DNA from: a virus
Length of the DNA: 40,488 bases
Strand: one strand, 5' to 3'
Virus record (IMG/VR): IMGVR_UViG_3300036770_008159
Coordinates: 1 to 40,488 of that record
The notes under the pieces are model-generated. The model searched no databases. It was not told the origin of the DNA and worked only from the letters and a program-made list of their open reading frames with translations. The number at the start of each line of letters is the position of its first letter. Position 1 is the stretch's first letter. The position numbers were made by a program, and so were the translations under genes. Positions 31,594 through 39,014 of the stretch are shown in pieces.

Positions 31594-32385
31594 GTGAAAT
31601 TTAAACTCCAAATTAATGGGCTGAACCTCAAGCAGGTTCAAAAGGTGGTTGCAAAAGACAACGGTCAACGCCCAGCGTTGACCAACGCAAGCATCGAGAT
31701 GTACGACGTGAACAACGTGCGTATGGTCATCGCAAACGGATATTTCATCTCCGACGTGAAAATCACGGCGGTAGACATGGAAAACAATCCGTTGTTAGAG
31801 GAATTTCCTCAAACGTGGCTTGCATTGCCTTTGCAGATTTTTGCGGATAACAAACCGCAAAAATCAAAGAAGTACTACAAATCTCATCACTATGAGATTA
31901 TTGTAGACGCAGAACCGCACGAAAATCTTGCTCGTCCCATGCAAGGGACAGCAACTGTCTTGGTGGATAACGGTACTATGACGTACCAGCTCGCCAAAGA
32001 TGGTGTAACGCCCAACATGACCTATCGAGTCATGGAAAATCGTCAAGTGATTGACGAGATGTCCGAAGAGGACAAGGTAGAGTGGGTTAAGAAGTGGAAT
32101 GGTTTTATCACCCTCAACTTTAACTCAGAATACCTAATGACCATGCTGGAAGCACAGCGTGGGTCTGAAGAGTGGGATAATCTTCAGATTACCGTAGACG
32201 CTTTTGCAGTGTCTATGGACAGAAATCCCCCGATGTGGGTCAACGTGCCCACCAAGGACAAAGACAACCACAACATTGGTTTGTTGATGCCTGTTTTGCT
32301 AAAGGATGGTGTGTATGAGCAAAATAAAGCTTATACTACAGAGCGTAACGCTCAGCGTCGAGACACTGCATCCAAACTTTCATAA
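31594..32385 (+). CDS. DNA polymerase III beta (sliding clamp)-like protein
   Basis: 263 residues with a GTG start after GAAAGGAACACAA. The N-terminal VVAKDNGQRPALTNASIEMY resembles the beta-clamp PxLxNxxIE strand. The C-terminal ITLNFNSEYLMTMLEA, then LQITVDAF, then HNIGLLMPVLL, closely follows the clamp's last domain (FNxxYLxxxLxA ... IxLLMPxxL). Bacterial clamps are about 370 residues with three domains; this one is shorter and would hold about two, so it may form a different oligomer. It would tether a replicative polymerase. It heads a transcript with a promoter and terminator, next to the putative origin region. Confidence 0.55.
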   Translation: MKFKLQINGLNLKQVQKVVAKDNGQRPALTNASIEMYDVNNVRMVIANGYFISDVKITAVDMENNPLLEEFPQTWLALPLQIFADNKPQKSKKYYKSHHYEIIVDAEPHENLARPMQGTATVLVDNGTMTYQLAKDGVTPNMTYRVMENRQVIDEMSEEDKVEWVKKWNGFITLNFNSEYLMTMLEAQRGSEEWDNLQITVDAFAVSMDRNPPMWVNVPTKDKDNHNIGLLMPVLLKDGVYEQNKAYTTERNAQRRDTASKLS

Positions 32386-32582: not shown

Positions 32583-32611
32583 TTGACAAAATATATATAT
32601 TTTGGTATAAT
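32583..32611 (+). promoter_or_regulatory. Consensus promoter of the tmRNA-like RNA
   Basis: TTGACA (32583-32588), 17-base spacer, TATAAT (32606-32611): both hexamers perfect. The expected start point (~32618) is only about four bases before the mature 5' G at 32622. Confidence 0.9.
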
Positions 32612-32621
32612 TATTGCAATT

Positions 32622-32755
32622 GGGGATGTTCTGGTATTGACAGGGTTATGTGCGATGCAAGTAATGATAACTGCCCATGGTAAGACATGAACGCACGATA
32701 CCTTAAATGGTAAGCATAATTTTGAACGGGGGTTCGAATCCCCCCATCTCCACCA
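32622..32755 (+). ncRNA. ssrA: Miniature tmRNA-like RNA (tRNA-like domain with reduced insert)
   Basis: 134 nt with both ends of a tmRNA. The 5' end GGGGATG-TTCTGGTATTGACAGGG matches the tmRNA acceptor and D-loop analogue (compare TTCTGGATTCGACGGG in E. coli and GATTCGACAGGG in Bacillus). The 3' end has a T arm GGGGG-TTCGAAT-CCCCC, then CATCTCC-A-CCA, with CCA encoded. The acceptor stem is seven pairs and its third pair is G-U, the alanine identity pair. The insert between the two halves is about 80 nt instead of about 300: TTAT/ATAA (32646/32716) and GTGCG/CGCAC (32650/32692) form a short P2-like stem, with a TACC/GGTA hairpin on the side. There is no room for the four usual pseudoknots. A short frame starting GCA (32657-32683) could be a tag. 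An intron-bearing tRNA fits worse, because no anticodon arm is seen. Confidence 0.8.
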
Positions 32756-33654: not shown

Positions 33655-33869
33655 TGCCAAACATCGACTATGCATTGGAGGAGTCAGTACGACTTCTTCA
33701 ACAAGAAATGGCAAAACTGGACATGGCGACGAAGGACTACGCAAGTAGCCCCACGCCAGCCAACCAAAGTTGGCTTCACCTTCACATTCAGAATGTGCAA
33801 GCCCTGCGCTTGCAGGTTGCACAGTTGAATCGTATCATTACTTACCGCATTCAAGAACACGGTAAGTAA
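33654..33869 (+). CDS. Small helical hypothetical protein
   Basis: 71 residues starting at the TAATG overlap with the previous gene. Two long helices are likely (residues 6-28 and 41-66, heptad-like LHLHIQNVQALRLQVAQLNR), suggesting a helical hairpin. A strong terminator follows. No family is recognised. Confidence 0.7.
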   Translation: MPNIDYALEESVRLLQQEMAKLDMATKDYASSPTPANQSWLHLHIQNVQALRLQVAQLNRIITYRIQEHGK

Positions 33870-33870
33870 C

Positions 33871-33917
33871 AAAAAACCCCTCTCTGTTAAAAAACAACAG
33901 AGAGGGGTTTTTTGTGT
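33871..33917 (+). terminator. Strong rho-independent terminator
   Basis: AAAAAACCCCTCTCTGTT / AACAGAGAGGGGTTTTTT, a 17-18-pair stem, at the left border of the repeat region. Confidence 0.95.
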
Positions 33918-33941
33918 GTAAAAAATATTCACTCAATTTCA

Positions 33942-34232
33942 TGTGCAAAAAATGCAAATCGTTTGCAAAAAATGCAAATCGTTTGCAAAAAATGCAAACT
34001 TAAAAAAATAAACTATTAACACATTTTTTGTTTTTGTTGCACGTATACAGCATACCAATCACGTTTGCAAAAAATGCAAGTAATTTGCAAAAAATGCAAA
34101 TCGTTTGCAAAAAATGCAAATCGTTTGCAAAAAATGCAAACTTAAAATGGCACTTTAAGGCATACCAATCACGTTTGCAAAAAATGCAAATCGTTTGCAA
34201 AAAATGCAAATCGTTTGCAAATAATGCAATCG
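33942..34232. repeat. Iteron-like array: ten 20-bp repeats in three blocks
   Basis: The unit TTTGCAAAAAATGCAAATCG repeats with a 20-bp period. Block A has three copies (33942-34001), block B four (34064-34143), block C three (34174-34232, last copy altered). Each unit is itself an inverted repeat TTTGCA-AAAAA-TGCAAA. Blocks B and C are both preceded by GCATACCAATCACG (34050, 34160), and blocks A and B are both followed by CTTAAAA. A 20-21 bp period puts binding sites on one DNA face, as in replication iterons or centromere arrays. The whole stretch 33918-34430 has no credible gene; its apparent reading frames are repeat artefacts. Confidence 0.9.
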
Positions 34233-34275
34233 TTGATTCTAATGCGGTAAAATGGCAAAAAAATCACGTAAATTG

Positions 34276-34324
34276 GTAATACTATTATAATATAATATTA
34301 TAAATATAATATTATTAGTATTAC
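34276..34324. other. AT-only inverted repeat beside the iterons; candidate duplex-unwinding element/origin
   Basis: GTAATACTA ... TAGTATTAC flank a stretch with A and T only (34283-34317) that is itself a near-palindrome (ATAATATTATAAATATAATA type). It lies 44 bases after the last iteron, the usual placement of an unwinding element. ATTGCG...CGCAAT pairs further on (34332-34356). Confidence 0.55.
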
Positions 34325-34376
34325 AACGTAGATTGCGTTTTTTTCAACAACGCAATTATTGCATTTACACTTTCAG

Positions 34377-34405
34377 TTGCAAGTTGTTACAGTCCGTCGT
34401 ACAAT
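34377..34405 (+). promoter_or_regulatory. TTGCA-type promoter for the 34431 gene
   Basis: TTGCAA (34377-34382), 17-base spacer, TACAAT (34400-34405). Matches the promoter at 37794 (TTGCAT-17-TACAAT). Confidence 0.55.
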
Positions 34406-34430
34406 ATACACAACAGGAAGGGAGAGAGAC

Positions 34431-35252
34431 ATGCCATACTCAATAGCACGAGTGCGATTTGGAAAATACAATGTTATCGACGAGGAGTCAGACAAAGTGG
34501 TAGGTTCGTACCCTACCCGACGACAAGCATTGAATCAAATGCGTGCGATGTATGGAAATGAACCTGGTTATGCGTTGACCAATCGAAATCTTTCTCCATC
34601 AGACCCACCGTTGTGGGAAAAAGCCAAAGAGGAAGCAAAGCGTCGTTTTTCGGTGTATCCATCAGCATATGCAAATGCGTGGGCTGGACGTTGGTACAAA
34701 GAGCGAGGTGGAGAATGGCATCGTTCCAAGAATCCTTTTGTCAATAGTGCGCCAAGTGAAAAAAAGGCGGAAACTAAACAGCAGGATAAAGAAAAACCAC
34801 CAGTTGCATCACCTGATACCAATGTGTATGAATTAACGCCATACGAACGTTTTGTACCAAATGACGACAAATCCAACAAAGAGGAAAAGTCAGTTTCATC
34901 AAATAACGACACTAGTTCGTCTGGCGATACAACACAAAAGTCTGGCGAAAAAGAAAAAAATTATTGGCTTCGAGAACCATGGGTGGATATCAGTCGTCCC
35001 GTCATTGACGAAGCTGGAAGTGTAATTGGCTTTCATCCGTGTGGCAGAAGTACAAAAGAGGTTCGCAGTGCCATGGAAGGATATCGCACATCATATCCTC
35101 GATGTGTTCCACGGTCTAAAGCGATGAAAATGAATGCAATGCAACGAGAAGAATTAATTCGACGCACCCGCAAACATGAAATTGATGCACTGCTCACAAT
35201 GTCAGCATCTGATGAGGAAAGCGGTTCTAGCGGTGAGGGAGATGATGAGTAA
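34431..35252 (+). CDS. DUF5872-like phage protein
   Basis: 273 residues from ATG 34431 (GGAAGGGAGAG upstream); longer in-frame starts into the repeat region lack a ribosome site. Residues ~60-105 read DPPLWEKAKEEAKRRF, YPSAYANAWAGRWYKERGG, the first DUF5872 signature. Then comes a disordered charged linker. Residues ~190-250 read YWLREPWVDISRP, GFHPCGR, YPRCVPRSKAMKM, the second part of the same signature. This architecture is common in phages and large viruses, often near packaging or head genes, and its function is unknown. It ends with a short acidic tail and overlaps the next gene (TAATG). Confidence 0.8.
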   Translation: MPYSIARVRFGKYNVIDEESDKVVGSYPTRRQALNQMRAMYGNEPGYALTNRNLSPSDPPLWEKAKEEAKRRFSVYPSAYANAWAGRWYKERGGEWHRSKNPFVNSAPSEKKAETKQQDKEKPPVASPDTNVYELTPYERFVPNDDKSNKEEKSVSSNNDTSSSGDTTQKSGEKEKNYWLREPWVDISRPVIDEAGSVIGFHPCGRSTKEVRSAMEGYRTSYPRCVPRSKAMKMNAMQREELIRRTRKHEIDALLTMSASDEESGSSGEGDDE

Positions 35253-35622: not shown

Positions 35623-36087
35623 CTAGTCTACTCGATAGTTCTCAATTTCTTGCTGAAACCATCGGTAGCACGCATCAACCGTGTTAAATTCCGCCATTGT
35701 GATTCCACGATAATGAGTAAGCTCATTTCGTGCAATCCAAATGCGTGCCTGAAATACCTCACCGATTTGAATGATAGACGTGACAATTGTCAGTGCGTCA
35801 TTCTTTCGTACATCGTGATGTACGACTTTACGAGAGTTTTTGCGCTCCTCAATTACTGGATGAACAGTTTTTTGCGCACCACGACGAACTGTCGTGCGAC
35901 GCAAAGGGTTTTGCAAGTTCATGATTCCACGCTTGTTGCTCAGTGCTCCTGACACCGACGCATGCGTGCGACCCAAGCGACGTGCAATTTCATCCAATGG
36001 AACACCTTCGTTGTACCACGTGGCAAGCGAGTTCATCTCACTTTGTGTCCATCGTGGTCGGTGTTGATTTTTAATATTGTTACCCAT
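35623..36087 (-). CDS. HTH (Myb/SANT-like) DNA-binding protein
   Basis: 154 residues from ATG 36087; AAGGGAAGGG would abut the alternative ATG at 36093. Residues ~12-55 (RWTQSEMNSLATWYNEGVPL, DEIARRLGRTHASVSGALSN) form a Myb/GcrA-type helix-turn-helix: RWT..E...L..WY..G....EIA..LGRT..SV..ALS. The C-terminal half (TIVTSIIQIGEVFQARIWIA, VDACYRWFQQEI) looks like a separate small domain. It is probably a transcription regulator of a phage gene set. The target cannot be told from the sequence. Confidence 0.7.
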   Translation of the reverse strand: MGNNIKNQHRPRWTQSEMNSLATWYNEGVPLDEIARRLGRTHASVSGALSNKRGIMNLQNPLRRTTVRRGAQKTVHPVIEERKNSRKVVHHDVRKNDALTIVTSIIQIGEVFQARIWIARNELTHYRGITMAEFNTVDACYRWFQQEIENYRVD

Positions 36088-36132
36088 ACTCATTCCCTTC
36101 CCTTGTAAATGTATATAAAGTATATCACAAAT

Positions 36133-37724: not shown

Positions 37725-37753
37725 TTTTTGCTCCTTTCATTCAACGTGCATTT

Positions 37754-37782
37754 ATTTTACCATTCAATATATATTTTGTCAA
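37754..37782 (-). promoter_or_regulatory. Sigma70-type promoter (minus strand)
   Basis: TTGACA (37782-37777), 17-base spacer, TAAAAT (37759-37754). It is back-to-back with the plus-strand promoter at 37794. Confidence 0.8.
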
Positions 37783-37793
37783 GAAAAATGTGT

Positions 37794-37822
37794 TTGCATA
37801 AAATGAATAGGATTTATACAAT
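37794..37822 (+). promoter_or_regulatory. TTGCA-type promoter for the ParB-DUF4417 gene
   Basis: TTGCAT (37794-37799), 17-base spacer, TACAAT (37817-37822), matching 34377. Confidence 0.6.
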
Positions 37823-37853
37823 ACAAGTAATAGTCACGAAAGGAATAATCGAA

Positions 37854-39014
37854 ATGAAACGAAAAAATTTTGATGAAAAACCTGTACTGCAATCAAAACA
37901 GTGGTCAAATCGCATTGTGTCATACGGCGAAGAAGACCCTGAGCAATTGCTGGCAAACCCGTTAAACTGGCGTGTGCACCCCAAGGCGCAACAGGTTTCG
38001 CTTACAGGCGTATTAGACGATATTGGGTTTATCGCACCAGTCATTGTAAACCGTACAACGGGTCACATGGTTGATGGTCACTTACGTGTATCGTTGGCAC
38101 TGCGAAATAATGTTCCTAGTATTCCTGTAATTTATGTGGAACTAAGTGAACAGGAAGAAAAAGAAGCACTTGTCACGTTAGACCCGATTGCAAACATGGC
38201 GGCTGCAGACATGAAAAACCTTGAAACATTGATTGGCGATATGGGGCAAGTAAATGATGCAGTTCGATTACTTGTAGGAGAGATTCTTCATGAAAGCAAC
38301 AAGAAAGCCGTCAAACAAGATTTGGATGAACTTGACGAGGACGAAGAAGGCGAAAGTGTCTTTGGGGACAATCCTTTTGGGATTACCGAGGACGCAGTTG
38401 CAAACAACCAAGAAGAAGAACGAATCTACCCTGCATTTGAATCGGACAACGAATGGGGAATCCCAACACTTGACTTAAATTATCAGTGTACAAAAGAACA
38501 TGCAGTGATTGAGCGATGGGGAAGACTGTCACGACACAATACACGCATGCCAGGTATGTGGCACTTCTACACCGATGATTACAAGTTTAGTGCGTTGTGG
38601 AAAGACCCAGATGTTGTAGTGCGTACAGGATGTTCTGCATCTATTGAGCCAAATTACACAACATCGTTTTCACACCCAAAAGCTGAAGTGCTATACAACA
38701 TTTGGCGTAAACGATGGCTTGCTCGTTATTGGCAAACCAAAGGGATTAATACAGTTGTCGATTTGAACGTTGAAATACCGTTTTGGGAACTCAATTTTCT
38801 TGGCGTTCCTAAGGGATGGAGTAGTTACGCCACTCGTTGGTATGCAAATTACGATGATGTTGATTTGCAATATAAGCGAGCGCAAGAACATGCAGAAAGA
38901 GAAGATATCACCTTTTTTGTTTTTGCAACAAAAATAAAAGACGTTGAAGAAACGTGCAAAGAAAAAGGATGGATAAATGTCAAAATGGACATGAACACAA
39001 TGAGTATGAAATAA
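37854..39014 (+). CDS. ParB/Srx-like N-terminal domain fused to DUF4417
   Basis: 386 residues from ATG 37854 (GAAAGGAAT upstream); in-frame upstream starts would lie before the promoter. Residues 30-115 match the ParB/Srx-like domain: NPLNWRVHP (35-43), LDDIGFIAPVIVN, then MVDGHLRVSLA with the GHLR (75-78) phosphate-binding turn. An acidic linker (150-195) follows. Residues 203-335 look like DUF4417: MWHFYTDDYKFSALW, YNIWRKRWLARYWQTKGINT, GVPKGWSSYATRWY. ParB-like domains in phages can be CTPases/nucleases or bind DNA near packaging genes. This one is three genes upstream of TerL, so a role in DNA modification, replication or packaging is likely. Confidence 0.8.
   Translation: MKRKNFDEKPVLQSKQWSNRIVSYGEEDPEQLLANPLNWRVHPKAQQVSLTGVLDDIGFIAPVIVNRTTGHMVDGHLRVSLALRNNVPSIPVIYVELSEQEEKEALVTLDPIANMAAADMKNLETLIGDMGQVNDAVRLLVGEILHESNKKAVKQDLDELDEDEEGESVFGDNPFGITEDAVANNQEEERIYPAFESDNEWGIPTLDLNYQCTKEHAVIERWGRLSRHNTRMPGMWHFYTDDYKFSALWKDPDVVVRTGCSASIEPNYTTSFSHPKAEVLYNIWRKRWLARYWQTKGINTVVDLNVEIPFWELNFLGVPKGWSSYATRWYANYDDVDLQYKRAQEHAEREDITFFVFATKIKDVEETCKEKGWINVKMDMNTMSMK

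Follow-up and report, generated by a model that had tools for sequence, protein, structure and literature searches.

Origins of replication are seldom recognised in uncultivated phages, and the locus described here raises the question of what is served by a dense array of short palindromes in one such genome. The array lies in an IMG/VR virus record of 40,488 bp, which was analysed over its whole length (the window) and is a fragment, as both ends are open inside reading frames. An earlier note had read the region as a likely replication origin or partition site made up of iteron blocks. The anatomy of the array and two comparisons, with the distant relative G004 and with O-like initiator genes, suggest that it is probably a lambda-type origin of DNA replication that stands outside the initiator gene.

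Anatomy of the dyad array and its neighbourhood

The array consists of 10 dyads of 17 bp each, with the consensus TTTGCA-AAAAA-TGCAAA, and spans positions 33942-34230 in non-coding DNA. The ten units, their arrangement in three blocks (3+4+3) with a period of exactly 20 bp within blocks, and the non-coding location are as first described. Successive unit starts are 20, 20, 82, 20, 20, 20, 50, 20 and 20 bp apart. The TTTGCA/TGCAAA inverted repeat attributed to every unit is perfect over the full TTTGCA-N5-TGCAAA in 7 of 10 units, but units 1, 4 and 10 deviate and the ten are not identical. Repeated block borders are present, but GCATACCAATCACG precedes only blocks 2 and 3 and CTTAAAA follows only blocks 1 and 2 (Table 1).

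Nine exact TTGC-N7-GCAA dyads are found within ~270 bp, compared with ~1.7 expected per 40 kb in first-order Markov sequences of the same composition. The reversed pattern, used as a control, has 0 matches, and there is no other dyad cluster of this kind elsewhere in the 40,488-bp record. The DNA fold z is -6.1 for the array region and -3.1 for an A/T palindrome that starts 47 bp past the last dyad. This palindrome, which had been called pure A/T and is A/T at 45 of its 47 positions, is the AT-richest 47-mer in the whole record. Over 400 bp, the record reaches its highest AT content at 33923-34322, and this AT peak adjoins the array. GC skew, proposed earlier as a check, has no extremum at the array when followed across the record, and there are no DnaA boxes near the array.

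Table 1. Positions of the array components and neighbouring features in the window.
Feature	Positions	Strand	Remarks
'Clamp-like' protein, putative	31594..32385	+	
Terminator-like hairpin, intrinsic	33869..33915	+	closes upstream genes; 20-bp perfect arms
Dyad block 1	33942..33998		3 units, 20-bp period; unit 1 begins TGTGCA
Right border CTTAAAA	33999..34005		3' of block 1
Left border GCATACCAATCACG	34050..34063		5' of block 2
Dyad block 2	34064..34140		4 units, 20-bp period; unit 4 ends TGCAAG
Right border CTTAAAA	34141..34147		3' of block 2
Left border GCATACCAATCACG	34160..34173		5' of block 3
Dyad block 3	34174..34230		3 units, 20-bp period; final unit (unit 10) degenerate, TTTGCAAATAATGCAAT
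A/T palindrome	34277..34323		45/47 A/T; candidate unwinding element, possible cruciform
Promoter-like TTGCAA-17-TACAAT	34377..34405	+	9/12, weak; for next gene
Downstream gene	34431..35252	+	273 aa; G004 homologue (46781-47650) is distant from the arrays there
HTH_38/GcrA-like protein	35623..36093	-	candidate binder put forward by the earlier note

The strong terminator reported upstream is borne out by a stem paired at 20 of 20 bp. The promoter reported downstream corresponds to a promoter-like site ~150 bp beyond the array, but this site is weak. As the array lies 3' of the terminator and 5' of the next promoter, it is probably not transcribed from upstream.

Protein searches recognised no initiator gene on the 40-kb record, and the earlier statement that no Rep gene is visible in the window holds. 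The protein described as clamp-like aligns over a short stretch with the second domain of the G004 clamp (BLASTP, 41 residues, E 0.023) and has no Pfam or PDB match. Its predicted structure (pLDDT 30) is too poor for use, and it is at most a putative clamp.

Further features were noted in the window. Very large proteins of low complexity are encoded one after another at 7723-30523 (+ strand), with frequent repeats (poly-Gly, poly-Ser, TNN) and common C-terminal motifs (..GGYRGG.. and ..NKYF/NKYM/NKYL). Three perfect TTGACA/TATAAT promoters (31526, 32583 and 33189, + strand) each precede a single gene or RNA, and a conserved AAATATATATAT spacer is present in two of the three.

The dyad in a distant relative and in O-like initiator genes

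Relatives were retrieved by two protein-anchored searches, one with TerL and one with ParB-DUF4417. Scans that used the clamp-like or the ParB protein singly gave no relatives, and no DNA similarity to phage records was found. Conservation in relatives, another check proposed earlier, was found for the dyad but not for the full array. Exact and relaxed array patterns detected no homologous array in viral or genome collections (five genome matches were unrelated), and L009, L010 and L035, which have TerL/ParB in common with the window, carry no array in the stretches examined (8.6 kb in L009). The same dyad is present in G004 (IMGVR_UViG_3300032294_001352, 87,876 bp), a distant relative of the window phage. 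The two have in common the start of TerL (80% over 56 aa), ParB-DUF4417 (52%), tail proteins, a terminase-small-like HTH protein, the array-adjacent gene and a tmRNA-like RNA, and in both the tmRNA-like gene, an array, ParB and TerL follow in this order on one strand.

G004 contains the TTGC-N7-GCAA dyad in three clusters of 3-4 dyads each. In cluster 1 (54860-54914), three dyads follow one another with a period of exactly 20 bp; one of them, TTTGCAAAAAATGCAAT, matches the window 17-mer except for the last base. It is directly followed by a promoter-like sequence and then by a replication operon predicted to encode Rad52 (PF04098), a winged-helix protein, an IstB/DnaC-type ATPase, a glycosyltransferase and a DnaN clamp. 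The winged-helix protein, encoded at 55738-56439, has a TrmB/MarR_2-like N-terminus (E 1.5e-4 / 4e-3) and neither a PHROG match nor a phage homologue, and its predicted structure (pLDDT 43) is unusable. Clusters 2 (81962-82016) and 3 (86404-86525) are upstream of leftward genes, near promoters. Cluster 3 is made up of 42-44-bp repeats of the dyad and a TATATA-type promoter-like sequence, in which the half-site TTGCAA could serve as the -35 of tandem promoter-like units, and its 100 bp are among the most AT-rich of the G004 genome. No A/T palindrome comparable to that of the window is present at the G004 arrays.

The tmRNA-like RNA is 133-134 nt long and is found at 32622-32755 (+ strand) in the window, downstream of a promoter of perfect consensus (32583-32611), and at 52362-52494 in G004 (L065:16362-16494). 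Its 5' and 3' tRNA-like ends are complete, with a G3-U70 alanine-type acceptor pair and CCA, and only ~41-46 nt are present where the model has some 285 positions. It is kept in G004 with compensatory changes and looks like a minimal phage tmRNA.

IMG/VR viral contigs were also scanned with the motif alone, any two tandem TTGC-N7-GCAA dyads counting as a match. Most of the matches listed lie in ordinary coding sequence. Of 80 loci examined among the matches listed, 11, representing about five lineages, have the array inside an O-like replication initiator gene; as these loci were selected for N7 and the count is at least 11 among the matches listed, the enrichment is indicative only. The host genes encode Phage_rep_O proteins (PF04492, E 1e-26 to 1e-28; L073 and L089) or HTH_36 proteins with matches in PHROG families for 'replication initiation O-like'. 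One locus retrieved via ParB only, L027, has five dyads in the middle of a gene for a MarR-type winged-helix protein, where GAGGTTGCGAAAATCGCAACCTC dyads are repeated, mostly every 42 bp (L027:4665-4877); this is likely to be a lambda-style in-gene origin of an unrelated phage.

When spacings of 0-15 were compared in 172 records totalling 1.8 Mb, four or more TTGC...GCAA dyads formed clusters at spacing 7 only, in the window, G004, L073, L089 and L027; as the scanned loci had been picked with this spacing, the count is free of selection bias only for the window, G004 and L027. The same 6-5-6 frame occurs with other half-sites in lambda (TCCCTC-AAAAC-GAGGGA) and Paraburkholderia phage IPK (GTTATC-AAAAC-GATAAC), and an annotated O gene of a Yersinia phage has TTAGC-N7-GCTAA, the period in this set being ~20-24 bp. 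The frame was not seen in the O genes of two Burkholderia phages and SaltyDalty.

Probable origin of replication and alternative functions

Because its layout matches the replication start sites of lambda and its kin, the array is probably where this phage begins to copy its DNA. An O-like initiator of the winged-helix class would occupy the array as dimers, one per 17-bp dyad, and ten of them, nearly on one face of the A-tract-rich DNA, could assemble into an O-some-like structure. The A/T palindrome alongside may then open, by melting or by cruciform extrusion, and the helicase would be delivered by a loader of DnaC/P type. We infer that the O-like initiator is encoded elsewhere in the phage, binds the dyads and starts replication at the array. 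The interpretation of the earlier note is partly supported. Of the two functions it proposed, the origin is the likeliest reading, supported by the G004 array of 20-bp period and the same dyad class in O-like genes. Several findings count against it. No initiator gene is recognised on the record, GC skew gives no support, an A/T palindrome like that of the window is missing from the G004 arrays, searches with the G004 winged-helix protein gave neither a PHROG match nor a phage homologue, and the two further G004 clusters near promoters of leftward genes would also fit a regulon.

The main rival is an operator array, as the other G004 clusters sit at promoters. The dyads would be targets of a transcription regulator by which the phage switches operons, and the ten sites would repress or activate the gene at 34431 or act as a sink. 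All three G004 clusters are upstream of transcription-unit starts, the TTGCAA half-site at 86404-86525 coincides with a possible -35, and HTH dimers typically bind palindromes that share one helix face. However, no good promoters are interspersed among the window dyads, an operator would not need both ten sites and the strongest A/T element of the record, the G004 homologue of gene 34431 is not beside an array, and the dyad class is associated with O-like initiator genes. Operators as the sole function are considered somewhat unlikely. Iteron-binding initiators commonly autoregulate, and in G004 one dyad type accompanies the replication operon as well as two further promoter regions. Both points would suit an initiator for which the array is the origin and the smaller clusters are operators, replication being coupled to the transcription of early genes. 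This combination requires one protein for all clusters, the binding of which is a prediction, and is quite improbable. A wider proposal is that in an undescribed lineage one dimeric initiator-regulator uses the 17-bp dyad as a ten-site stand-alone origin with a cruciform-forming A/T element and as genome-wide early-promoter operators, replication and transcription being coupled; this is unlikely, and the window initiator may in that case belong to a new family.

A parS-like partition site for plasmid-like maintenance, the other function first proposed, found no positive support. The dyads are in tandem and a protein with a ParB-like domain is encoded on the record, but no ParA was recognised among the window proteins searched, and the ParB-like protein is a fusion of a ParB/nuclease N-domain to DUF4417 beside the terminase. 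The fusion is conserved in L009, the 8.6 kb of which has no dyad array, and none of the three G004 clusters is next to ParB, leaving partition highly improbable. The fusion gene (37728-39014, + strand) lies just before the terminase gene, and L009 and G004 are arranged alike. A packaging (pac) site or an element acting as RNA has an equally slight chance; in favour, the dyads could form hairpins and the terminase large gene is 6 kb distant. Against this, the array lies between a terminator and the next promoter, G004 clusters precede genes of both strands, and the TerS-like HTH gene is 27 kb from the array. An origin of lambda type remains the favoured reading, and it provides a concrete DNA site and, in G004, a candidate initiator.

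Comparison with known replication and partition systems

ParABS systems have a linked parA and an HTH-type ParB; the window has no recognised ParA, and its ParB-like N-domain is joined to DUF4417. Iteron plasmid origins (P1, F, R6K) resemble the window in their tandem ~20-bp repeats and AT-rich neighbour, but their iterons are non-palindromic and accompanied by a Rep gene and usually DnaA boxes, whereas the window units are palindromic and neither is seen. The earlier term iteron is therefore apt in the lambda sense of dyad sites but not in the plasmid Rep sense of non-palindromic direct repeats with DnaA boxes.

In lambdoid origins, iterons bound by O dimers lie beside an AT-rich tract that is needed for unwinding (PMC7466680). 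The origins of lambda and of lambdoid/Stx phages share with the window tandem 17-18-bp dyads of 6-5-6 form with an A-rich centre, a 20-24-bp period and a one-sided AT-rich tract. They differ in half-site (TCCCTC in lambda, TTTGCA in the window), and the A/T tract of the window is a palindrome, unlike that of lambda. Lambda has 4 iterons and Stx phages have 6, in gene O, whereas the window has 10 in three blocks of non-coding DNA. No lambda-type initiator or loader is recognised on the window fragment, the candidates (the winged-helix protein and the DnaC-type ATPase) being in G004. In layout the array resembles an O-type origin, but it stands outside an initiator gene, unlike the classical origins, and it cannot be filed as a proven member of the type. 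The arrays of L073, L089, the L081/L085/L104/L098 groups and L027 match the half-site and spacing of the window, (G)TTGC-N7-GCAA(C), but are in-gene, belong to other lineages and have periods of ~20-24 or 42 bp. G004 has the near-identical 17-mer and, at 54860, the 20-bp period, but in three clusters of fewer dyads and without the A/T palindrome. The 6-5-6 frame, A-rich centre and ~20-bp period appear to be common to O-type origins with unrelated half-sites, and the window suggests that an origin of this type need not lie within the gene for its initiator.
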